Shown here: positions 1,128 to 28,289 of the stretch, in pieces
Layout of the letters: every line of letters begins with the position of its first letter
Position numbering within the stretch: the stretch's first letter is position 1
From: a virus
IMG/VR virus record: IMGVR_UViG_3300028177_000022
Span: 1-30,231 of that record
DNA length: 30,231 nucleotides
Reading direction: 5' to 3' (one strand)
Made by a program: the position numbers and the translations under genes
The notes under the pieces: model-generated
What the model saw: the letters and a program-made list of their open reading frames with translations, nothing else
What the model was told of the DNA's origin: nothing
Database searches by the model: none

Positions 1128-1135
1128 GTTACCTA

Positions 1136-1165
1136 GTGACTGGTATCAAAGGACACCGAGATCGA
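1136..1165 (+). repeat. 30-base TGACTGGTATCAAAGG repeat, copy 1
   Basis: Copy 1 of a 30-base repeat whose 5' part is GTGACTGGTATCAAAGGACA and whose 3' part is CCGAGATCGA. It lies just after the terminator at 1097-1127 and begins 60 bases upstream of the TATAAT of promoter P2. Other copies are at 1538-1567, 2413-2432 (short) and 2437-2466. A regulatory binding site is the simplest reading. Confidence 0.8.
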
Positions 1166-1509: not shown

Positions 1510-1537
1510 TCAAAAATTATGAAGATTTTTTTGGGTA

Positions 1538-1567
1538 GTGACTGGTATCAAAGGGCATCGAGATCGA
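1538..1567 (+). repeat. 30-base TGACTGGTATCAAAGG repeat, copy 2
   Basis: Matches copy 1 in 28 of 30 positions (GGGCAT in place of GGACAC). It starts 58 bases upstream of the TATAAT of promoter P3, nearly the same spacing as copy 1 to P2, which supports a promoter-linked operator or activator site. Confidence 0.8.
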
Positions 1568-2407: not shown

Positions 2408-2412
2408 ACCTA

Positions 2413-2466
2413 GTGACTGGTATCAAAGGACAATGAGTGACTGGTATCAAAGGACATCGCCATCGA
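2413..2466 (+). repeat. 30-base repeat, copies 3 and 4 in tandem
   Basis: A 20-base short copy (GTGACTGGTATCAAAGGACA, 2413-2432) and a full copy (2437-2466, with CGCCATCGA at its end) lie four bases apart. As with copy 1, they directly follow a terminator and are preceded by CCTA. No extended -10 promoter follows closely; instead the TGTTCCAA array begins at 2500. Confidence 0.8.
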
Positions 2467-6470: not shown

Positions 6471-6818
6471 ATGAACCAAGCAACAAAGAAAAACGTAATA
6501 GCATTAGCAGTTATCGTAGCAATTGGAGGGCTTGTGTATGTATCAAAACAAGATGTACCCACACCCGCACCCACATCAGCACCCGCGGTAGTCATAGTTG
6601 AAACTATCACAGAATCAGAGGCTAAAGCACTGGTATCAAAAGACACCGGCATTGACCTTATAAATCTTGGAGACGAAACAGTTCTTCCTGAAATTGCGGG
6701 ATATGACAACCCAACAGTTGACGACCTACCCCCACTTACATTGGATGGTTCACACCTACCCGATATGGTGGGCTATGAGTCTCCATCAGCTGACGAACTT
6801 CCGCCACTAGAATTATAG
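6471..6818 (+). CDS. single-pass membrane protein with duplicated C-terminal motif (115 aa)
   Basis: I take ATG 6471 behind CGGAGAG; an earlier in-frame start at 6417 lacks a ribosome site. Residues 8-25 (NVIALAVIVAIGGLVYV) form one hydrophobic segment preceded by lysines. A Pro/Ala/Thr linker follows (TPAPTSAPA), so the acidic C-terminus probably lies outside the cytoplasm. The end carries two imperfect repeats: LPEIAGYDNPTVDDLPPLTL and LPDMVGYESPSADELPPLEL. A spanin-like or envelope-modifying role is possible but not shown. It also contains a DNA match to the 30-base intergenic repeat at 6629-6655. Confidence 0.75.
   Translation: MNQATKKNVIALAVIVAIGGLVYVSKQDVPTPAPTSAPAVVIVETITESEAKALVSKDTGIDLINLGDETVLPEIAGYDNPTVDDLPPLTLDGSHLPDMVGYESPSADELPPLEL
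6629..6655 (+). repeat. in-gene match to the 30-base repeat
   Basis: The 27 bases beginning ACTGGTATCAAAAGACACCG match repeat copy 1 (1139-1165) at 23 positions. They lie inside the membrane protein gene and encode ALVSKDTGID. This may be a diverged fifth repeat copy that has been kept within coding sequence, or chance plus selection. Confidence 0.5.
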
Positions 6819-13859: not shown

Positions 13860-15428
13860 ATGGAAATACTAGAAAACGTAGCTGTTAAGTTAATGGTGCC
13901 AAACGCAGTGGTGCCCGCGATACAAGGGCGCATTAAAAAATTTAAAGTTTTAGAGACCGGCGAGACAATGTCTGACGTTGTTATTCGATGGGGTCTAGAT
14001 GAGATGACGTTATTATCTGATTTATTAAACTTTAAAAAATTCCCACCTTCACCTATTACTCGTGACTATAAATGGTCAGGAAGATTTCAACCTTTCGATC
14101 ATCAAAAAGTTACTTCGGAATTTTTTAGTATAAACCGTAGAGCGTTTTGTTTTAATGAAGCCGGCACCGGTAAAACTTCTAGTGTGTTATGGGCTTCTGA
14201 TTACTTAATGAATGAAGGCAAGATTAAAAGAGTCTTGGTAATTTGTCCACTATCAATCATGACATCTGCGTGGAGGAATGATATATACAACACTTGTATA
14301 CACAGAACTCCCGGGGTAGCTTACGGTTCTGCCGAAGATCGTCGCGCTATTATAAGTAATACTCAGTACGAATTTGTAATCATTAATTATGATGGGGTAA
14401 ACATTGTTAGAGAGGATATAGCGGATGCCAACTTTGACTTGGTTGTGGTAGACGAAGCCAATGCTTACAAGTCTGTGACAACTAAACGGTGGAAAACATT
14501 AGCTAAAATACTTAAGCCTGAGACTCGTTTATGGATGATGACCGGGACTCCGGCATCTCAATCTCCAGAAGATGCGTTCGGTTTAGCCAGACTCGTATGC
14601 CCCCACCGTGTACCTAAATTTAAAACAGCGTGGCGTGACAAAGTTATGAATCAGATTACTAGGTTTAAATGGATGCCCAAAAAGAATAGTCAAGAGGTAG
14701 TGTTTAATGCCTTGCAGCCCGCTATACGTTTCGCTAAAAATGATTGTCTTGATTTACCCGACGTAACTTATCAAACAAGAGAGATACCACTTACGCCACA
14801 AGTAGAAAGATACTACAAGAAATTGAAGAAAGATATGATCATTGAAGCAGCCGGGCAAGAGATAACTTCAGTAAATGCAGCTGCGGCTATGACAAAATTG
14901 TTACAGATTTCTGGTGGAGCAGTATACACTGACGGCCACCAAGTTGTGCAGTTTGATATTAAACCTAGACTTAAAGAGCTTGTGGATACTATAGAACAGA
15001 CAGCGCATAAACTCATAGTGTTTGTGCCGTACCGACACACCATAGATATAGTTGCCCAACATTTAGAAGCGAATAACATCACCACTAAAATTATTCATGG
15101 GAGTGTATCGGCTCACAATCGTACACAGATTATTAAAGAGTTTCAAAACGCTGATGACCCAAGAGTCTTGGTCTTGCAACCACAAACCGTAGCACATGGC
15201 ATTACACTTACTCGCGCAGACACCGTAGTATTTTGGTCTCCCGTGATGAGTGTTGAAGTCTACATACAATGTATAGCGCGGATTGATCGAGTGGGACAAA
15301 AAAACAAGATGACAGTAGTACACTTACAGGGTTCGGCCATTGAAAAAAGGATGTATGCAATGCTACAAGGTAAAGTAGATAGGCATATGAATTTAGTTGA
15401 TTTATATAGAGAGGAGATAGGACTATGA
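13860..15428 (+). CDS. SNF2-type superfamily 2 DNA helicase (522 aa)
   Basis: ATP-dependent DNA translocase of the SNF2-like SF2 group. Motif I (Walker A) is NEAGTGKT (99-106). Motif II is V-V-D-E-A-N (196-201, a DEAN variant of DEAH). Motif III is MTGTP (227-231). Motif V is around HGITLTRADTVVFW (446-459), and motif VI is QCIARIDRVGQ (470-480). An N-terminal 75 residues precede the helicase core (F-x-P-x-x-H-Q, a Q-motif-like FQPFDHQKV at 76-84). Marine podoviruses often carry one such helicase beside the primase; it probably unwinds or remodels replication and recombination intermediates. It overlaps the next start (ATGA). Confidence 0.93.
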   Translation: MEILENVAVKLMVPNAVVPAIQGRIKKFKVLETGETMSDVVIRWGLDEMTLLSDLLNFKKFPPSPITRDYKWSGRFQPFDHQKVTSEFFSINRRAFCFNEAGTGKTSSVLWASDYLMNEGKIKRVLVICPLSIMTSAWRNDIYNTCIHRTPGVAYGSAEDRRAIISNTQYEFVIINYDGVNIVREDIADANFDLVVVDEANAYKSVTTKRWKTLAKILKPETRLWMMTGTPASQSPEDAFGLARLVCPHRVPKFKTAWRDKVMNQITRFKWMPKKNSQEVVFNALQPAIRFAKNDCLDLPDVTYQTREIPLTPQVERYYKKLKKDMIIEAAGQEITSVNAAAAMTKLLQISGGAVYTDGHQVVQFDIKPRLKELVDTIEQTAHKLIVFVPYRHTIDIVAQHLEANNITTKIIHGSVSAHNRTQIIKEFQNADDPRVLVLQPQTVAHGITLTRADTVVFWSPVMSVEVYIQCIARIDRVGQKNKMTVVHLQGSAIEKRMYAMLQGKVDRHMNLVDLYREEIGL

Positions 15429-16030
15429 ATAAAATAGAGCAATTAGAGAGGGAAAGAACAGACTTAAAGAACAAATATTATGAAGAAACAAGAGCGTTAA
15501 CTGAGAAAATAAAACATGCGCAGTGGGTAAAAAGAAAAGCATCTCTTGATGCGCGCGAAAAGAAAAAATTATTGGGGGTAAAAAGAGATGAGCAGATTAA
15601 AGAAGAATATGATAGGGGAGAAATTACACATAAAAAACTAGGAGCTAAATATAATTTGTCTGGCTCAAGAGTTCATCGCATCATACAAGCAGTTGAGCGA
15701 CGACAGCGAGCTCAAAGAGTTTGGAAACAAAAACGCAAAGAGATAAGGGGGTTAAAAAAAGAGTTACAAGATGGTAATAATGATACAACTCCGTTCGGGA
15801 ATCAACTTGTAACTTATGACATTTATTTTTTAAACATGAATGTTAGAACGTCGAATTGTCTTAAAGGGGTAGAGATTTATACTATTGGTAGCTTAATTCA
15901 AAAGAGCGAAAGGGAGTTATTGAGGGCACCTAACCTAGGTAGAAAGACTTTAAATGACATTAAGTATACATTGGATGATTGGGGACTTAAATTAAATACA
16001 AAAATTAATAGAGAGGAGATAGGACTATGA
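15425..16030 (+). CDS. coiled coil-HTH-RNA polymerase alpha-CTD-like fusion protein (201 aa)
   Basis: Three parts are visible. Residues 1-50 are a charged coiled coil. Residues 57-90 contain a helix-turn-helix with sigma region 4 / resolvase feel (GEITHKKLGAKYNLSGSRVH). Another basic helix follows (92-116). Residues 135-190 match the C-terminal domain of the RNA polymerase alpha subunit. VRTSNCLK (140-147) corresponds to E. coli VRSANCLK around R265, and NLGRKTLNDIK (170-180) corresponds to NLGKKSLTEIK around G296-K304. The E. coli UP-element residues R265, N268, C269, G296 and K298 all have identical counterparts (R141, N144, C145, G172, K174). E261 becomes Asn. This suggests a DNA- and perhaps sigma/activator-binding transcription factor. 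It overlaps the genes on both sides. Confidence 0.88.
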   Translation: MNKIEQLERERTDLKNKYYEETRALTEKIKHAQWVKRKASLDAREKKKLLGVKRDEQIKEEYDRGEITHKKLGAKYNLSGSRVHRIIQAVERRQRAQRVWKQKRKEIRGLKKELQDGNNDTTPFGNQLVTYDIYFLNMNVRTSNCLKGVEIYTIGSLIQKSERELLRAPNLGRKTLNDIKYTLDDWGLKLNTKINREEIGL

Positions 16031-16431
16031 GTGGAGTAAAAGTAAATTCCTTAGTGAAAGCTTATTTGGCTATTAGATTAGAGCGAGATAAGTTAGCTAA
16101 GAAATATCAGCAAGAAGATAGCGAACTTAAAGATCAGATAAGTAGATTGGAGAGTGCCATGCTAGAAACTTGTGATGACATTGGTGCAGAAACATTACGC
16201 ACCGAAAGCGGTACAATTATTAAAACCCTTAAAGAAAACTACATATGTGGGGATTGGGATAACTTTAAAACTTATGTATTAGAAAACCAAGCTTTAGAGT
16301 TATTACAGCAACGCATTAGTCAGACAAACTTTAAGGAGTTTCTAAGTACACGAGAGGAGGAGGGACTCCCTCCTGGTATCAGTACGATGAGAGAGTTTAA
16401 AATAACTGTACGTAAACCAACTAGTAAATAA
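16027..16431 (+). CDS. conserved phage protein beside the SSB gene (134 aa)
   Basis: The N-terminus is a coiled coil (residues about 5-48, LVKAYLAIRLERDKLAKKYQ). A beta region follows (ETLRTESGTIIKTLKENYIC), then DWDNFKTYVLENQALELLQQ, RISQTNFKEFL, and a final LPPGISTMREFKITVRK. I have seen this layout in phage proteins encoded next to ssDNA-binding proteins, loosely like the Gp157 type, but no function is established. Adjacency and overlap suggest it works with SSB or the recombination machinery. Confidence 0.72.
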   Translation: MSGVKVNSLVKAYLAIRLERDKLAKKYQQEDSELKDQISRLESAMLETCDDIGAETLRTESGTIIKTLKENYICGDWDNFKTYVLENQALELLQQRISQTNFKEFLSTREEEGLPPGISTMREFKITVRKPTSK

Positions 16432-16442
16432 GGAGAATGACT

Positions 16443-17120
16443 ATGGCTCAACAGCCTGTAACATTTACAACACCTCAAGGTGTTGCGCAATACCCTTGGT
16501 TATCTAAACCGGATACTAAATTTTCGGAAGAGGGCGACTATAAAGTAAATCTTATTATAGCCAAAGAAGAGGCATTACCTGCGTTAAAATTAATTAATCA
16601 AGTGTATGCTGAGAACTATGAAAAAGAAGTTAAGAAAGCGAAGGGGGCTGAAATTAAGAAAGCACCCCCTCCATTTTCCGAAGAGCTTGATGATGCTGGT
16701 CAACCTACTGGTAACATCATACTTAAGTTTAAATCAAAAGCAGCGTACAAGCCAGCTATCTTTGATGCTAAGGGTATCCCTATGATAGACAGTAATATTT
16801 GGGGTGGCTCGGAGTTAAAAGTAAATGGTTCAGTTGCCGCATACTACACCCCTTTGATTGGCGCCGGAGTCGCTTTAAGACTTAGAGCCGTTCAAGTTAT
16901 TCAGTACGTTGAGGGTGGCTCAGGTAGCGCTGATCGTTTTGGCTTTGAGGTTGTTGCCGGCTATGAACATAAAGCGGTAGAAACTTTTGAAGAGGTGACA
17001 GCTACAGAAGAAGCGCCTGTCGTTAAAGAAGACGAGCCAGTAGTTAGATCTGATGGCAAAATACCGCCTAAACCCGCTGATGATTTATCAGATATTCTAA
17101 AACAATTTGCAGAGGAATAA
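16443..17120 (+). CDS. ssb: ssDNA-binding protein, DUF2815/gp2.5-like (225 aa)
   Basis: An OB-fold ssDNA-binding protein of phage type. Evidence: an N-terminal ...FTTPQGVAQYPWLSKPDTKF stretch typical of DUF2815-like SSBs, a central region with IILKFKSKAAYKP, and SELKVNGSVAAYY. The acidic C-terminal tail (DDLSDILKQFAEE) is the usual docking site for polymerase and helicase. It should coat ssDNA at the fork and aid annealing. I start it at ATG 16443, seven bases after AGGAG; the ATG at 16437 is only one base after that site. The tail also contains a disordered Glu/Pro stretch. Confidence 0.85.
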   Translation: MAQQPVTFTTPQGVAQYPWLSKPDTKFSEEGDYKVNLIIAKEEALPALKLINQVYAENYEKEVKKAKGAEIKKAPPPFSEELDDAGQPTGNIILKFKSKAAYKPAIFDAKGIPMIDSNIWGGSELKVNGSVAAYYTPLIGAGVALRLRAVQVIQYVEGGSGSADRFGFEVVAGYEHKAVETFEEVTATEEAPVVKEDEPVVRSDGKIPPKPADDLSDILKQFAEE

Positions 17121-17122
17121 CT

Positions 17123-17464
17123 ATGCCAAAAAAATATAGCCCAGAGTTTTTAATAGAGCTTAATACTTTTGACAAAGATAGACCCGGAGTTCAGTTAGCG
17201 AAGGCCTGTGTAAATGCAGACCTTCCTATCACTGAAGTCGCTAAAGTTTTTGAGGTGTCTCGGATGACTATTCATAGTTGGTTCCGAGGATCTCCTATTA
17301 GAGATAAGAACTGTATTAAAATTAAAAAATTTTTAAAAGCACTTAATGAAGCGTGGGACGATCAGTTTGAGAATCATACAGATACTCTACCGTTGTCGCA
17401 TTTAAAATTAGCTAAAGAATTTTTGAATACTAAAATAGTCCCTAAATTAGGGGTTGAAGATTAA
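17123..17464 (+). CDS. helix-turn-helix protein (113 aa)
   Basis: Residues about 35-56 (PITEVAKVFEVSRMTIHSWF) form a good helix-turn-helix with a Trp in the recognition helix. The rest is helical (IKIKKFLKALNEAW; LSHLKLAKEFLNTKIV). It starts three bases after the SSB gene and ends before the primase. It is probably a small DNA-binding protein regulating this operon or helping loading of replication proteins; no effector domain is visible. Confidence 0.75.
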   Translation: MPKKYSPEFLIELNTFDKDRPGVQLAKACVNADLPITEVAKVFEVSRMTIHSWFRGSPIRDKNCIKIKKFLKALNEAWDDQFENHTDTLPLSHLKLAKEFLNTKIVPKLGVED

Positions 17465-20387: not shown

Positions 20388-20571
20388 TCCTGAATGGGTG
20401 TTGCCGTTTTCATCTATGGAGCCCGGAGATAGTTTTTTTATTCCCACAGTAAAAGCGCCGGACCTTTTGTATGCGATTGAAAGTGGGGCTAAAAGAGCAA
20501 AGGTAAGAGTGAAATCGTTAGTAGTAGTAGAAGATAATCTAATGGGTGTTAGAACGTGGATGCTTAGCTAG
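20371..20571 (+). CDS. small conserved phage protein (66 aa)
   Basis: Starts within the end of the primase gene. Features LPFSSMEPGDSFFIPTVKA (about residues 11-29) and a helix-strand end (AIESGAKRAKVRVKSLVVVED, VRTWMLS). I recall this pattern from small proteins downstream of phage replication genes, always without known function. It looks like a compact alpha/beta fold. Its stop overlaps the stop of the minus-strand virion gene by three bases. Confidence 0.78.
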   Translation: MRLHNDPEWVLPFSSMEPGDSFFIPTVKAPDLLYAIESGAKRAKVRVKSLVVVEDNLMGVRTWMLS

Positions 20572-23500
20572 CTACCCATTTTATCACGAACTGCGGTTTC
20601 AATTCTTTTGTTAAGAGTGATACCACCAACGCTATTATTGATTGAGTCTTCTTTATTTTTATAAGAACGTTTTAGAGTAGATCCAGTAATAGGGTTTGCA
20701 CTTCCTATAGTGCTTCTATTGAAATCATTTATTTTATCCTGTACTTCTCTCATCATATCAAAGTCGCCGTTTTTACGGGCTAAGTAATGAGCAGTGAGTA
20801 ACCCAGAACGTCTAGCATTAAAGTTTTTCTCTGCTTGTTTCATTGATTGATTACGCGCATACTGTAAAGAGAGGTCTTCATTAGTAAACCCAAAGATTTG
20901 TAAGAATCCATCAAGTGGGTTTAGTGGTACTATCTCTGCGCCTTTTCTATTTACTGCTCCTTCAGTAGCATATCTTATGGCTTTCATAGGGTTACGTGCA
21001 AAAGCCGGAAGCGTTTGTTCTACCCCGCGATATATATTACCTCGTGCCATATCTTGCAATCCTCGATTAACGCTTAGACCGTAAGAGAATGAAGGTCCTA
21101 AACCTTGTTCTAATACATACTGCATGAGTCCAACTTCAGATATACGACGAGGATCTTCTCGCCAAATTAAGTTAGCAAACCCAGTACGCGATGCAATATC
21201 TACATTAAGTAATTTATTAAGTGGGCCTCGGTATCCTATGTCTCCAAATATTTCTCGTGTAGATTCTTCAAAATCAAATGGCTCATCTTCATCACCAAAC
21301 ATTGCATACATTACTTCTGCTAATGCCTGAGTGAAGCCATATAATGGTGCGCCTTGAAGTCCTGCAAAAGTAAATGAGGCACCGTAAATACCTAATATTT
21401 GTTTTCTTGCTATATTTCTTACTTCTTTAGTTTCACCCCGATAAGCATCGTTAAACGCTTTAAATAGTAAATGCAGCATTGCATGACCGTAACGTTTAAA
21501 GGTGAACATTACTTTACCAAAATTTTCTTGGAAGAATCGCGGACCTATTTCAGGAAGTGCAGTACCATGTGATCTACGAGTAAGCTCTCTTGATTTTCGT
21601 TCAGCTACTTCAAAAGAAGCTCCTTTCTCTTTAGCCGCTAAATACCCGGCGATGTAAGTTACTTCTCGGTTCATTCGTTCTGTATTTTGAAACATCCAAC
21701 CCATTAATGCATCAAACTTAGCTTTAGTACCTACAAAGTCTTTGGCATTTGTCTTACGCATTTCAGTAAGTTCGTAGCCTACACCCCTACGAAACACACT
21801 ATTATCTATTCCGGTTTTGTAAAGCTGTTGTAAGTCTTCTGGTAAATCTGTTCGTAGTTTACCGTCTTTCATTCCAAAAGATTGATCTGGTAAAAAACCT
21901 CGGTTACTATCTTTGCCACCACCAAAGTAATAACTAAAAGCTTGCCCCATTACTCTATTAGCCATACCAAACCCATACTCTGCAACAAGTGTTGGGTAGA
22001 CAATAATAGCTAACTGAGTGGCGTTAACCAATGCAGAAGACACATTACCAGCAATAGAAGTAAGATAACTTAAGTAAGCAAACCTAGAAGATATTGGGCC
22101 GGCTACAGGGTTATGAAAAAAACTTTTAGAGTCTTCAAGTCTTTCCACAACTGAACTAAGCGAAGTTTGTAAGGAAGCGTCTTTGGGATTGGTGGGATCT
22201 AAATCTGCTTGCATCGTAGCGTTCTCAGTACCAACGTCCGCTATATTTTCATTAATCTCTGGAATATATTTTAGGTTAGCAACTTGAGTTGCCATACGTG
22301 CACCTAGATCAATAAAGCCACCTACTAAGTCTTCGACGTAACCCCCTGTACCAAGTCTTTGGCGTGATTGTTGCTTAATCGATTGAGACGGAAGAGCATC
22401 TAAAAATAACCCAGCCACTTCTTTAATCACAGCCTCGTCTACTAAAGGCTTTCCTTCTTCATCTGTCTTTTGCAAAATGCCCGTCACTTCCTGCATTATA
22501 CCGACAGCTCCCTCGCCGCTTACCCTAAATGATTTATTTTCAGGATCTATTTCTGCTTTTAGTACAGTAATCCCGTCAGCGCTTTCTTGTCGAATAGCCG
22601 CTTCTACATACGCCGCTTTAGTTTCATACCTTGAAGTTTGAACTAAAGGTTGATACCTCTTAAACTCTTCTGCTTTTCTAAATGCTTTTTGATCCTTAGA
22701 CTCATCAGAGTTTTCTATTTGCTCCATAATTTCATTGTGTTCAGTTAAATTTTCATTTGAAACATAAGATAAAACATAATCTCCGCGACGTCTAAACGGA
22801 TGATAAAACTTTAATCTGTTTTCAGTAAATTCTTTTACTACTCTTTCCACTACTTCTTGAGCACTCTCATCTTTTTTAACAGCTTTTTCTGCCGCAGTTT
22901 TGTATGCGTCTAACAAGTTGTTACCGTATTGCTCAAACTTTTCAGTGTATGCTATAGACAATGCTTGAAGCTCTGGTGGTAAATTAAAAAACTTCATTAC
23001 GTCAGGATCAGTAAAATTAGCTTGATCTCTTGGGTCAACGTCTCGTTCTGAAAGTTTGTAAGTAGTTTGCTCCCAAGTTTTTAACTGCCCATCTGTATAC
23101 TTTCTACTTGTTGTTTTATCTGTCAGAACAACTTGCCCGTTATCACCTATTTTAACTTGCCCAGTTTTTTTGTCGTAGTCAATAAGTCGTCGTTCTTTTC
23201 CTTGAATAACATCCATACCTAAATTACCTAAGACATCTACTTCTGCACGTGTGGTCTCTACTTCTGCCGCACGGCGTTCTAACGTGTTCATAAGTTTTTT
23301 AATGCTTGGTAAATACTTATCATACAAATCAACCATAGCTTGCAAACCTAACATACCGGTCCATGCATCTTTAATCGAGGTAGGCAATTCTGTAACTTTA
23401 TCCCACACCCCTTTTATGTAATCTTTTGTAGGAAGAGGCAGTTTCTGTTGCAAGTCACCTGCATATTTAAATAACGCATTGTCTTGTGTAGGGTTAACTC

Positions 23501-26500
23501 CACCTGGAGGATTCTCTTTAGAGAACTGAATGTTTTTATTATCTACTCTTGATTCTTGAGTTGTTTTACTTTCTGGCGAAACTGATTCAAGTTGTCGCTC
23601 TCGTTCTCCAGTTGTATCCCCTTTTCTAGTGTCTCCAGGTATTCGGTCTCTTCCGGGTAGTCCCTTTTCCCTAGGCGTAACCATGTTCTTAGGTACGCTT
23701 TCAGCGCTAGTTTCTCGGATGCCATCTTTGAAGCGTTGTCCAATAAGTCGAGTAACATTTCTATTTTCTCCTTCAGTGTTTTTTAAAATTTCATGTGCAA
23801 CTTTAATCATCTCAAAGTTTTTTTCTACGGCTTTAATAATTCTTTTTTCTACAGCACCAAAACTATTAAATGGTTGATTTTTTGCTACAAATTTTTCAGT
23901 GGCTTTTAGTTTAAGAGCAAGTTTTTGCATTTCTTTTGTAAAACCTGCCTCATGGTTTCTCTCTTGATAATGAGCAAGCTCATGTATCATTGTTCCCGAT
24001 ATCCCATATCCTGCTTCTCTTTGAAGCCTACGGGTACCCTCTGATGTAATTAACAAAGCAGGGTCTATTTCGAACAAAGCATCTGCCATAAACGGATTAA
24101 CAAAGGCTCCTTCAAACGGCACTACTAAATTTACCCCTGCGTATTCGGTATCAATAGAAACACCAATGGCAGCCTTATTTAATTCTTTATAATTTCTTGC
24201 CGTATCTATTAATAAGCCAGCTTCTCCTAAACGAACTACTTGGTCGCGTAATATAATAAAGGAAGCCCCAATCTCATTTATAAATGCATCAAAGCCTGTA
24301 GCGTATCCGTTCTCTACAATAGTTGGAAATTCTTCTCTCAATACTTCTTGAATGGGAGCAAATTGATTTTGACTTAATTTAGTTTCTACATTATTATGAA
24401 GTACTGGTTTTTTATAGTCAATCGCATCTTTTGGAATTACTATCTCCGCTGAACTAACAACAGCGTTTTTTAAATCTTCGGGTGTTCGGATAGGAACTTT
24501 TTTGTTTCCGATAACTAATTTTCCGTCTTTAATTTCAACTTTTGTGCCTTCAGGAATACTTTCTTTTAAAAGGCCTTCTTTTTGTTCGGAAGATAATAGT
24601 ATTTTTTTAGATACAGTAATACTTCCATCTTTGTTTAAAGTGTATTGTTCAAGACCACCAAAAGATATTGAGTCGTCTTTTAATGATTGATTTTTGTGTA
24701 AAACATATAGCCCGTTTTTAATATCTTCAATATCTTTCTCAGCTTGTTCTGTAAAGCTTCGTCTATCAGGGTCAAATGGATACGCAGGGTTTCCCGCTTT
24801 TACAGCGGGTTCAACATCCATATAGTATTCAAATGGAATCACCTCATCGTTAGGTCTTTCAAAGTCTAGTGGAATGTCGTCCTTAAATTGAAATAGACCG
24901 TTTGATAGTACGGTTACGTTATAAGTCTTATTTTCAGTTTCAAAGTTTTCATTTATACTTTTATATACTTTCACATTTCCCCATTTATATGGAACATCAA
25001 AAACAGGAATAAACTCATCAAGGGGAAAGTTCTGCCCTATATTTACTTTATTCCCTTGTCCAGTTTCAAAAAAAGAGTCATTATTTAAGTCTACCCCACT
25101 TGTGGTTTTAAGAATTTCAAAAGTAACGTTTATATTTTGAAACAAAGGACTGTTTAATAACGATTCGTAGAAAAATTTATCTAGGTTTTGGGATATATAA
25201 ATTTCTTTCTCTTTCCCTTTATTATTTATATAAGTTTTAGGAATAGTAACTGTAATTTGGGTACCGTGTCCTTCAGGAAACATAGCATCAAATTTTGCTT
25301 GTTCATTAAAATATTCTTCTGTGGTTAAAATGTCAATTGGAATACCTATTTTATCTTCGCTTACAAACGCCCTCATTAAAGTTTCGCCTGTAGTTCTTAA
25401 ATTAGATATTTTTCCATCGCGCATAGTAGTTACATTTATATCTCCAGAACCATATAAAAGTATAGCTTTTGCAAATCCAAACCCTCCTGCTGGTCCTTTA
25501 TCGGTAATCTCTTTAAGAGTTCCTCCAATTTCTAAAAATACGCCTCCCAAAGTTTCTTTGGTCATGCCAATCCCGTTGTCTCTCATAGTAATAGTGCGAG
25601 TATCTTTATTAACTTTAATATCAATATTACCTTGTTCCATTTTCCCTTGTTCAATTAAAGGTTTAATAGCATCAGCCGAATTCTGTAACATTTCTTTTAC
25701 GACAGTGTTTGGCATTTTATCCATGTCTGATAAATATTTATTACGAAGCATACTTATAAAAGTTTTAAGATTAGCTTTTGCTTTGCCCATATATTTTTTA
25801 GACATCTGTACAGCTGGAGTATCTGATGTACTTGATGCCAGTGACTTACCAGTATTCTCTGCTAGAGAAACTCTTAAAGAGTTTAAGATCATGTCTTGTA
25901 TGTCAACGTCGCTAAAACGATTGACGTCGTATATCCCCAACCTGCGTAAAAAGTTTTTGACTGCGCCTACCATACGCCTAAACAATGTGTTGTTAGGTGC
26001 ACGCTCGCCTAGCTTAGCCATGACCTCTTGTAAGAAAGGCTTACTGTTCACTTCTAACTCTGGGTACAGCTCTTGCACTTCACCAAAGAGCGCATCTATA
26101 TCTGCGTTTTGTTTTCTTAAAGTTTTAAGGCGATTTAATAATGCGGTGTAGTCTTTACCCACCATACGTTCCAACCCGTAATGCTCACCTATCTCATGTA
26201 ATAATATGCGACGCCCTTGACCTTTTTGTATACGGTTAGCTACTAAATAAGATATGCCTGAGTTATTATCAAAGGCTCCATTAGCCGTTGAAGACATAGT
26301 AACATTAGCGGGCAACTGCTCTACGCTATCTACCACAACTAACCTACCACGCTCTTGCATACGGTTAACGTTGGGGCCAAACTCCTGCACAAGTTCTGTT
26401 GTTATAGTCTCTGCGGTTTGTCCTGTGCCTTCTGTATCAGTTCGTGATTCTTGAAACCCTAGCTCCCCATCAATTTGATCTACAAGTTGTCCCGTCAGTT

Positions 26501-28289
26501 CTCCATCTTCTTTTGCCTCTCTTAAGCGTTGTTTATTTTCAGAACTTAATTTAGCAAAAGGAATCTCCGATATAGACATTTCTTCCCAAGCTTCTTCAAC
26601 TGTTTCTTCTAATGCAGGATTGACGACATCCGCTCGCTCTCCAGTTGGTGAAACAGGACCAGTATCGACTTCCACTTTTCCTCCGACAGGACTTCCAAGT
26701 TCGGCGGCAGTTTCACCGGTAGCGGATTCGAGAGGTAACACATCGCTTCCTCTAATAATTTTATTTCTGTCAACGGCATCAATAGTTGTGGGTTCATCTT
26801 GGATTGTCTCCTGTGGTGGTTCATAATTAATTTGTTCTATTTCATCTAGCCCATTGTAATACGCTATACCTTCTTCAATTGTCATACCTTCTGGAGGTCT
26901 AAACCCTTCATATGGAAGTTCTATATCTGCCTCATCATCGTCGTCTACCTCTTTCACGGCTTCTGCTACAAGTTCTTCTCTTACTTTTGTCCATTTATTA
27001 GTTTTAGGGTTGTAATTAAAAACTTCTCTAACACTAACAGCTTGCCCTTCTATCATTTTTTCTGATATTTTTATAGCTTCTTTAAATTCTTCTTGAATAT
27101 CTGGTTTAATTATTGTAAGCCCTTGTATGTCCGCCGCCTCTTTTCTTCGTTTGAACATTGCATTTAACTCTACCCCTAACAATTCTCCTTGAGTTCCTTT
27201 CGCTATATTTTTACCTAGTTCAGCACCTGTATCTAAACCAGGTGTACCTGTTGGTTTATCTAAAGTGTTTAATAAAGACTCAGACTCACTGCCTTCAATC
27301 GGAGAACTTACTCCTCTGAAGAATCCACCGGCTATTGCGCCTCTTACTGCTGACTCCATAATTCGGTCCCAGTCTTCACTACCAAAGATTTGAGGATTAC
27401 CGGCAACAAAGTTTTCAGCACTAATACTAATAGCTTCTTGCATTCCTTCAGTCACACCTTCAGTCGCTGCACCTTTTGCCATACCAGTAAATACTTTATT
27501 AACTAAAGAAGGATTAGCCCCAGACTTTAAAAGGAGTGCCCCCGCTATGTCTGTTTTTTGAATAGGAGTTAATTTTTTAAGCATCGTGGCTGGAAGAACA
27601 GAATCTAATGAAGCGGCAGCTGCACCAAATAGTAATGATGTGCCTGTTTCTAGTTGGCCCGTTTCTTGATATATATTATTAAATACTTCAGGAGCATTAA
27701 GAGAGTAAGAACCTAAAAACACACCTACATTTTGAGCGAGCCCTTGTCTTTTAGCTACGCGTTTAATAATTTCTTTAGTAGGCATCTTAGGATATTTTTT
27801 AGCTAATTCAAGTGCAAACTTTTTAGCGGTTAATTTTGCGCCTATCGCAGGTACCCCACCCGACCCAATCATGGTTAATAAATTAGGACCTTGTTCTGCT
27901 ATTGTGCCCGCAACAAAACGAGCAGCTCCACCTAGACTATCTACGTCTTTAAAAGACTCAAATTCAGGGGTATACATCCTCGCTATTTTTTCTTCAGAAC
28001 GCCTTGCTTCTTCCATTTGCCGTTTAGCGTAGTCCTCAAAGCCTAAAGCATTCGCTGCCATTGCAGGAATAACGTCACCAAAGGTAGACTTAACTCGCTC
28101 TACGCCGGTATCCCACCCGCCAGTAATTGCTCTACCTAAAGTGTAGTTAGGAGTAATGGTACTTGGAGGGGGTGTTTGTTGACTAGCAATCTGAATCGCT
28201 GCTTGAGAAATTTCTTGAGGTGTAGCGCCTGGCGGTCCTATAACTTGTAAAGGTTGTCCATCAGGCAATGTTGTCTCGTAAATAGGCAT
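20568..28289 (-). CDS. giant polyvalent virion protein: GHKL ATPase, zincin motifs, LPD38/PLxRG end (2573 aa)
   Basis: Likely an internal virion protein ejected with the DNA. Starts like injected-core proteins (YETTLPDGQPLQVIGPPGAT). Residues about 100-330 are Gly/Ala-rich and hydrophobic, suited to a membrane channel. HEIGEH (698-703) fits an HExxxH metal motif. An Hsp90/GyrB-like GHKL ATPase follows: E866-x3-N870-x2-D873, D904-N-G-I-G-M909, GGFGFAK 935-941. HELAHYQERNH (1436-1446) has metzincin-like HExxHx5H spacing. A coiled-coil middle (about 1650-1950) leads to a C-terminal LPD38/PLxRG-type region (about 2050-2573). Landmarks there are hydrophobic SIAGNVSSALVN, GPLNKLLNVD and IPT-like FNRSTIGSANPITGSTLKRS. 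Multi-domain packaging fits polyvalent proteins. No lysozyme or transglycosylase motif was noticed. Confidence 0.88.
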   Translation of the reverse strand: MPIYETTLPDGQPLQVIGPPGATPQEISQAAIQIASQQTPPPSTITPNYTLGRAITGGWDTGVERVKSTFGDVIPAMAANALGFEDYAKRQMEEARRSEEKIARMYTPEFESFKDVDSLGGAARFVAGTIAEQGPNLLTMIGSGGVPAIGAKLTAKKFALELAKKYPKMPTKEIIKRVAKRQGLAQNVGVFLGSYSLNAPEVFNNIYQETGQLETGTSLLFGAAAASLDSVLPATMLKKLTPIQKTDIAGALLLKSGANPSLVNKVFTGMAKGAATEGVTEGMQEAISISAENFVAGNPQIFGSEDWDRIMESAVRGAIAGGFFRGVSSPIEGSESESLLNTLDKPTGTPGLDTGAELGKNIAKGTQGELLGVELNAMFKRRKEAADIQGLTIIKPDIQEEFKEAIKISEKMIEGQAVSVREVFNYNPKTNKWTKVREELVAEAVKEVDDDDEADIELPYEGFRPPEGMTIEEGIAYYNGLDEIEQINYEPPQETIQDEPTTIDAVDRNKIIRGSDVLPLESATGETAAELGSPVGGKVEVDTGPVSPTGERADVVNPALEETVEEAWEEMSISEIPFAKLSSENKQRLREAKEDGELTGQLVDQIDGELGFQESRTDTEGTGQTAETITTELVQEFGPNVNRMQERGRLVVVDSVEQLPANVTMSSTANGAFDNNSGISYLVANRIQKGQGRRILLHEIGEHYGLERMVGKDYTALLNRLKTLRKQNADIDALFGEVQELYPELEVNSKPFLQEVMAKLGERAPNNTLFRRMVGAVKNFLRRLGIYDVNRFSDVDIQDMILNSLRVSLAENTGKSLASSTSDTPAVQMSKKYMGKAKANLKTFISMLRNKYLSDMDKMPNTVVKEMLQNSADAIKPLIEQGKMEQGNIDIKVNKDTRTITMRDNGIGMTKETLGGVFLEIGGTLKEITDKGPAGGFGFAKAILLYGSGDINVTTMRDGKISNLRTTGETLMRAFVSEDKIGIPIDILTTEEYFNEQAKFDAMFPEGHGTQITVTIPKTYINNKGKEKEIYISQNLDKFFYESLLNSPLFQNINVTFEILKTTSGVDLNNDSFFETGQGNKVNIGQNFPLDEFIPVFDVPYKWGNVKVYKSINENFETENKTYNVTVLSNGLFQFKDDIPLDFERPNDEVIPFEYYMDVEPAVKAGNPAYPFDPDRRSFTEQAEKDIEDIKNGLYVLHKNQSLKDDSISFGGLEQYTLNKDGSITVSKKILLSSEQKEGLLKESIPEGTKVEIKDGKLVIGNKKVPIRTPEDLKNAVVSSAEIVIPKDAIDYKKPVLHNNVETKLSQNQFAPIQEVLREEFPTIVENGYATGFDAFINEIGASFIILRDQVVRLGEAGLLIDTARNYKELNKAAIGVSIDTEYAGVNLVVPFEGAFVNPFMADALFEIDPALLITSEGTRRLQREAGYGISGTMIHELAHYQERNHEAGFTKEMQKLALKLKATEKFVAKNQPFNSFGAVEKRIIKAVEKNFEMIKVAHEILKNTEGENRNVTRLIGQRFKDGIRETSAESVPKNMVTPREKGLPGRDRIPGDTRKGDTTGERERQLESVSPESKTTQESRVDNKNIQFSKENPPGGVNPTQDNALFKYAGDLQQKLPLPTKDYIKGVWDKVTELPTSIKDAWTGMLGLQAMVDLYDKYLPSIKKLMNTLERRAAEVETTRAEVDVLGNLGMDVIQGKERRLIDYDKKTGQVKIGDNGQVVLTDKTTSRKYTDGQLKTWEQTTYKLSERDVDPRDQANFTDPDVMKFFNLPPELQALSIAYTEKFEQYGNNLLDAYKTAAEKAVKKDESAQEVVERVVKEFTENRLKFYHPFRRRGDYVLSYVSNENLTEHNEIMEQIENSDESKDQKAFRKAEEFKRYQPLVQTSRYETKAAYVEAAIRQESADGITVLKAEIDPENKSFRVSGEGAVGIMQEVTGILQKTDEEGKPLVDEAVIKEVAGLFLDALPSQSIKQQSRQRLGTGGYVEDLVGGFIDLGARMATQVANLKYIPEINENIADVGTENATMQADLDPTNPKDASLQTSLSSVVERLEDSKSFFHNPVAGPISSRFAYLSYLTSIAGNVSSALVNATQLAIIVYPTLVAEYGFGMANRVMGQAFSYYFGGGKDSNRGFLPDQSFGMKDGKLRTDLPEDLQQLYKTGIDNSVFRRGVGYELTEMRKTNAKDFVGTKAKFDALMGWMFQNTERMNREVTYIAGYLAAKEKGASFEVAERKSRELTRRSHGTALPEIGPRFFQENFGKVMFTFKRYGHAMLHLLFKAFNDAYRGETKEVRNIARKQILGIYGASFTFAGLQGAPLYGFTQALAEVMYAMFGDEDEPFDFEESTREIFGDIGYRGPLNKLLNVDIASRTGFANLIWREDPRRISEVGLMQYVLEQGLGPSFSYGLSVNRGLQDMARGNIYRGVEQTLPAFARNPMKAIRYATEGAVNRKGAEIVPLNPLDGFLQIFGFTNEDLSLQYARNQSMKQAEKNFNARRSGLLTAHYLARKNGDFDMMREVQDKINDFNRSTIGSANPITGSTLKRSYKNKEDSINNSVGGITLNKRIETAVRDKMGS

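Follow-up and report, generated by a model that had tools for sequence, protein, structure and literature searches.

Why would a phage encode the C-terminal domain of the RNA polymerase alpha subunit (alpha-CTD) behind a helix-turn-helix (HTH) and a coiled coil? The question is raised by a gene for a 201-residue protein in the window, by which we mean the whole stretch of 30,231 nucleotides analyzed here, a linear IMG/VR virus contig of 30.2 kb. The known means by which phages control host polymerase include sigma factors and anti-sigma proteins, enzymes that modify alpha, and activators that bind DNA. A regulator that brings along an alpha-CTD, a part of the polymerase itself, would add a different route. 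The reading that we prefer, with a probability of roughly 0.55, is that of a phage transcription regulator, putatively dimeric, whose HTH and own alpha-CTDs would hold promoter-upstream DNA and steer host RNA polymerase; we infer dimerization, target, and direction of the effect.

Results

Genetic context

The gene lies on the plus strand among early genes encoding DNA polymerase, exonuclease, endonuclease VII, helicase, single-stranded DNA-binding protein (SSB), and primase; the portal, terminase, head, and tail genes are on the minus strand (Table 1). The minus strand also encodes a 2573-aa polyvalent-type protein (20568-28289); it has a GHKL ATPase domain, resembles a metallopeptidase weakly, and in its C-terminal part gives a DarB-like antirestriction match. 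No lysogeny genes were found among the proteins scanned. The neighboring helicase, SSB, primase, DNA polymerase, and endonuclease VII genes would suit a DNA-binding protein that assists replication or recombination, in which the alpha-CTD serves as a plain helix-hairpin-helix module. We nevertheless hold that explanation to be improbable, as residues specific to alpha-CTDs are kept beyond the hairpin alone and as similar architectures in other phages bear sigma region 4 HTHs (see below).

The earlier note, made from the sequence alone, had seen no phage RNA polymerase in the window, and this observation held: the window ORFs that were scanned, among them part of the small ones, include neither a phage RNA polymerase nor a sigma factor, and about 60 kb of near-identical relatives likewise yielded no phage RNA polymerase. 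A search for single-subunit phage RNA polymerases gave 0 matches, a weak negative since its positive control also gave no signal. Because no phage polymerase was found, we take host polymerase to be the likely partner of the protein.

Table 1. Positions of the features discussed, in window coordinates
Feature	Position	Strand	Remarks
Gene of the HTH, coiled-coil, and alpha-CTD protein	15425-16030	+	ATG start; 201 aa; 4-nt overlap with the neighbor at each end
N-terminal long helix, aa 3-50	15431-15574	+	Heptad pattern, then basic stretch (heptad/charge scan); within AlphaFold2 helix 3-63, high pLDDT
Helix-turn-helix, aa 52-92	15578-15700	+	Weak likeness to Mor and sigma region 4
Second long basic helix/coiled coil, aa 93-116	15701-15772	+	AlphaFold2 helix 80-116, continuous with the HTH recognition helix; net charge +7
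Flexible linker, aa 117-124	15773-15796	+	pLDDT below 50
Alpha-CTD, aa 130-190	15812-15994	+	Pfam, solved-structure, residue, and fold matches; 265 (DNA) determinant intact, 261 (sigma) determinant lost
Upstream neighbor, SNF2-type helicase	13860-15428	+	phrog_62 DNA helicase, E=6.6e-104; 4-nt overlap with 15425-16030
Downstream neighbor	16027-16431	+	phrog_13900; 4-nt overlap with 15425-16030
SSB, same gene cluster	16437-17120	+	phrog_112, E=1e-34
Other HTH protein of the window	17123-17464		Alternative candidate binder of the box
Candidate box, copy 1, AGTGACTGGTATCAAAGGACA	1135-1155	+	40 nt ahead of the extended -10
Candidate box, copy 2	1537-1557	+	38 nt ahead of the extended -10
Candidate box, copies 3 and 4, tandem	2412-2456	+	

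A genuine alpha-CTD with an intact DNA determinant

Residues 135-190 had been read as an alpha-CTD, and profile and structure comparisons both bore this out. Pfam family PF03118 (RNA_pol_A_CTD) matched residues 130-184 with E=4e-15 (55.7 bits versus a gathering cut-off of 23.8), and solved alpha subunits matched the protein with E values down to 2.4e-14, the best being Francisella alpha2. Furthermore, Foldseek aligned the C-terminal part of the predicted structure with the E. coli alpha-CTD from a complex with CAP and DNA (3n4m_C; TMt 0.91, rmsd 0.9 A). The family match is far beyond chance, and the two outcomes named beforehand as contrary to it, namely no family match and no alpha-CTD fold, were absent: the Pfam match was strong and the predicted structure carried the fold. 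RpoA equivalog models matched residues 116-196 through their last 60-90 positions only, far under their equivalog cut-offs, and the RpoA N-terminal assembly domain (NTD) is absent from the protein. Because it has no alpha NTD, the protein cannot enter polymerase as an alpha subunit.

All eight residue statements of the earlier note were correct by alignment. In E. coli numbering, five positions are identical (R141=R265, N144=N268, C145=C269, G172=G296, and K174=K298) and two changes in the 265 determinant are conservative (T175=S299, i.e., S299T, and D178=E302, i.e., E302D), while the 261 determinant is altered at N137=E261 (E261N) as well as by D258Y and D259F. The 287 side is largely retained (S285 by a T285S change, E286, R287, and E288). 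In E. coli alpha, the 265 determinant contacts DNA and the 261 determinant contacts sigma region 4. The DNA-contact face is thus retained and the sigma-contact face lost, which suggests that the domain has been preserved for DNA rather than for sigma contact. This pattern bears on the proposal that the protein tethers host polymerase to phage promoters. A tether in which the alpha-CTD contacts sigma or host activators instead of DNA would draw on the retained 287 side (T285S, E286, E288), but the changes D258Y, D259F, and E261N remove the sigma contacts and spare the residues that touch DNA, and we regard such a protein tether as quite unlikely. The determinant for DNA binding is intact; tethering by way of sigma has become less likely.

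Helices, HTH, and linker of the N-terminal half

An AlphaFold2 model was built from an alignment of the window protein with viral alpha-CTDs (mean pLDDT 82.8, about 92 in the alpha-CTD and below 50 in the linker). It predicts helices at residues 3-63, 69-75 (short), and 80-116, followed by the linker at 117-124, in agreement with the earlier placement of the alpha-CTD behind an HTH and a coiled coil. The N-terminal long helix is probably a dimerization helix. Similarity of the HTH to known families was weak: Mor (PF08765) matched in its HTH part only, with E=1.4e-3 (19.0 bits versus a cut-off of 24.9), Sigma70_r4 with E=0.025 (14.5 bits versus 24.1), and the late transcriptional activator family phrog_532 with 1.9e-4. 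When aligned by hhalign with the HTH profile of the HTH-alpha-CTD class described below, it scored P=2.3e-4 at a probability of 44%, a value reached by about 2 of 2000 shuffles. With a profile score under the cut-off and this hhalign probability, assignment of the protein's own HTH to sigma region 4 was not reached; as judged from these profiles, it is too divergent for that label. Weak by sequence as it is, the HTH may have another role.

Alpha-CTDs are widespread in viral contigs

Viral contigs scanned with an alpha-CTD alignment yielded 201 relatives. Of 80 that were kept, one was set aside as nearly identical to another; the other 79 were inspected, and none had an RpoA NTD. R265, which is outside the scan pattern, was invariant in 63/63 viral alpha-CTDs, and position 302 was E or D in 61/63; G296, K298, and N294 are inside the pattern, so that their conservation is partly built in. 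The partners of the domain vary: besides HTHs and coiled coils there are small helical domains and, in L086, an Arc-type domain. At L086:4717-5463, an Arc-type ribbon-helix-helix domain is fused to an alpha-CTD, and a large group of phage proteins of ~120 aa (L046, L014, L020, L043, and similar loci) combines an alpha-CTD with a conserved small helical N-terminus (MTKEELLD...AYRVAEDM).

Among named phages, the domain was found in Caulobacter phage CcrColossus gp133, Goe8 gp5, and Ruegeria phage V16 gp23; Microbacterium phage Atraxi gp24 matched less strongly. The domain is also present in many entries of uncultured Caudovirales. It is N-terminal both in V16 gp23 (L095:3923-4786), which RefSeq names a pyrophosphatase, and in CcrColossus gp133 (L094:2977-3831), named a histidyl-tRNA synthetase. 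Erythrobacter phage vB_EliS-L02 ORF40 is annotated with an alpha-CTD in the accessible text of its description, from which, rather than from sequence, we know it (PMC9127768). No named phage in INPHARED carries the same full protein. Several INPHARED "phage" matches are plain rpoA genes (AFYI01000003, AGRM01000003, CAKLQH020000003, OR851339, and others), the Salmonella contigs being plainly chromosomal. An alpha-CTD in a phage is therefore not new, being widespread in viral contigs and partly annotated. The searchable literature gave annotations only, with no function found for any phage alpha-CTD, and the phiCbK paper, where it treats RNA polymerase and alpha subunits, does not discuss gp133. 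Phage alpha-CTDs are apparently unstudied.

The same layout recurs with a sigma region 4-like HTH

The earlier note had proposed to look for the same architecture in related phages; the layout was found to recur in unrelated ones, with a clear sigma region 4 HTH. This second set has an HTH, a spacer or long helix, and an alpha-CTD (L058 and L039; L087, L072, L008/L116, L117, L118, and L093; L119, L120, L121, and L125). A profile built from six of its HTHs matches principal sigma factors at 6e-11, and the HTHs of L058 and L087 pass the cut-off of the Sigma-70 region 4 profile. In the L087 model, a 66-residue helix extends from a region-4-like HTH and leads to the alpha-CTD. By these sequence comparisons, the HTHs of the set are sigma region 4-like. 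The window protein has the features that define the class, i.e., an HTH, a long helix, and an alpha-CTD in this order and no RpoA NTD, and its HTH aligns in register with those of the set.

In a tree of alpha-CTDs, L058 and L039 have domains that group with that of the E. coli type, and the domains of L087 and its kin group with the RpoA of a gut contig (L007). A single origin of the fusion, with the two clear groups forming one clade, was rejected by the AU test (p=1e-4, on 66 columns and for groups defined after the tree had been seen). Placement of the window protein with the L058/L039 group was not rejected (p=0.23), its branch being long and unplaced. More than one origin of the HTH-alpha-CTD fusion is thus supported, while assignment of the alpha-CTD groups to hosts is tentative, resting on a 66-column tree. 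A fusion of HTH, coiled coil, and alpha-CTD was not found described in the searchable literature, within which the combination and its repeated origin appear to be undescribed. The novelty first attributed to the protein accordingly stands for its exact architecture and falls for the phage alpha-CTD itself. A broader scenario, possible though doubtful, would have phages of unrelated hosts repeatedly capturing a host alpha-CTD and fusing it to an HTH of the -35 type (sigma region 4-like). The products would be portable readers of promoter-upstream DNA that reprogram host polymerase while being neither sigma factors nor subunits, and the window protein would be a member whose HTH was retargeted to a phage box.

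Exchange of the gene and changes in its HTH

Orthologues were found at 97% (L002 and L003) and 88% (L109) protein identity, and an N-terminal scan for further ones returned, among viral contigs, only the two records already known and, beyond these, a single contig from an alphaproteobacterial MAG. L109 (JABAZY010000021.1) is a phage-like contig binned in an alphaproteobacterial MAG, which hints at the host group. Its copy of the gene is about 93% identical in DNA over most of its length. The protein is 88% identical, but the proteins flanking it mostly reach 35-65% (76% in one case), so that the gene has recently been exchanged among divergent phages.

In a comparison with G001, a close relative, 6 codons of the gene differ nonsynonymously and 2 synonymously, as against 4 and 19 in its neighbors (Fisher p=0.006, a comparison chosen after the fact). 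Three of the 6 amino-acid changes are within the HTH (H69L, H84R, and R85C) and none in the alpha-CTD. Positions 84 and 85 align with R588 and Q589 of sigma70, which matter for -35 recognition. These very few changes hint at a changing DNA target beside a fixed alpha-CTD.

Both comparisons could also fit a repressor or a factor of phage-phage competition that is swapped among phages, given the 88% identity of the L109 gene beside flanking proteins mostly at 35-65% and the post hoc excess of amino-acid changes (6/2 versus 4/19, p=0.006). The early cluster position, the lack of lysogeny genes among the scanned proteins, and the small overall number of changes make such a role very unlikely. Another explanation involves a decoy, in which free alpha-CTDs would occupy UP elements or host activators and lower strong host promoters during host takeover. 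The retained 265 determinant would allow this, as would the missing alpha NTD, which leaves the domain uncoupled from polymerase, and alpha is a target of T4 and phiKMV-like phages too, in other ways (PMC2988021, PMC7552054). However, the HTH and the apparent shift of its recognition residues suggest specific sites, and a decoy would require a high dose; we consider it unlikely. Competition with host alpha subunits, which the earlier note also proposed, is a possible role.

Candidate target promoters

The early control region contains four copies of a 21-nt box, AGTGACTGGTATCAAAGGRCA, where zero boxes are expected from shuffles at up to 5 mismatches. A terminator-like hairpin with a T-run precedes the tandem pair and each single copy. 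In two cases an extended -10 (TGTTATAAT) with a poor -35 follows the box after 38-40 nt, which places the box at about -52 to -72. The box is retained within one mismatch in relatives as far as about 75% identical, and it is absent from the examined part of the L109 phage contig, a part that may stop short of the early control region. A weak extra copy is present at 6625. Three near-identical promoter-like elements (GTAAAGTANTGTTATAAT) occur at 178-195, 1184-1201, and 1584-1601; they are the sole TGnTATAAT sites of the window and lack a consensus -35.

The geometry of the box suits the type of activator that works beside alpha-CTDs, and the box promoters are a plausible, unproven target of the 15425-16030 protein. 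However, these promoters look early, whereas the synthesis of an activator has to precede the firing of the promoters that it serves, which counts against an activator.

Discussion

Our preferred reading of the protein as a regulator of host polymerase draws on a true alpha-CTD with its DNA determinant kept, the linker and helices, the early replication cluster, and the recurrent layout with a region 4 HTH. The HTH changes at the R588 and Q589 positions and the boxes before TGTTATAAT, conserved to about 75% identity, are further points in its favor. In the mechanism that we propose, the coiled coil would form a dimer, the HTH would bind a phage-specific site, and the linked alpha-CTDs would hold the A/T-rich minor groove next to that site, in the way that UP elements are held by host alpha-CTDs. 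By gripping DNA at two points upstream of phage promoters, the protein would recruit or position host RNA polymerase, acting in an activator-like manner and bringing its own UP-element reader. Many phage genomes encode such a domain, which has apparently escaped study, so that a function here would suggest one for many proteins.

The window protein shares its family, predicted fold, and conserved DNA-binding residues with the C-terminal domain of bacterial RpoA. Unlike RpoA, it has no NTD, does not assemble into polymerase, has lost the sigma-contact residues, and carries an HTH and long helices in front. Its HTH weakly resembles that of the Mu-like Mor/C late activators, under the family cut-off, and Mor proteins are not known to carry an alpha-CTD of their own. 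CcrColossus gp133, Goe8 gp5, L02 ORF40, and the uncultured Caudovirales entries are likewise free-standing phage alpha-CTDs with no RpoA NTD, but the partner of the domain in gp133 is a different C-terminal part, in a protein whose RefSeq copy bears the synthetase name, and the N-terminus of gp5 from Bacillus phage Goe8 is unrelated to that of the window protein. Finally, the HTH of the L058/L087-type group matches sigma region 4 strongly, whereas that of the window protein stays under the cut-off, yet L058, L039, L087, L072, L116-L119, and L125 (all IMG/VR) have the same module order as the window protein.
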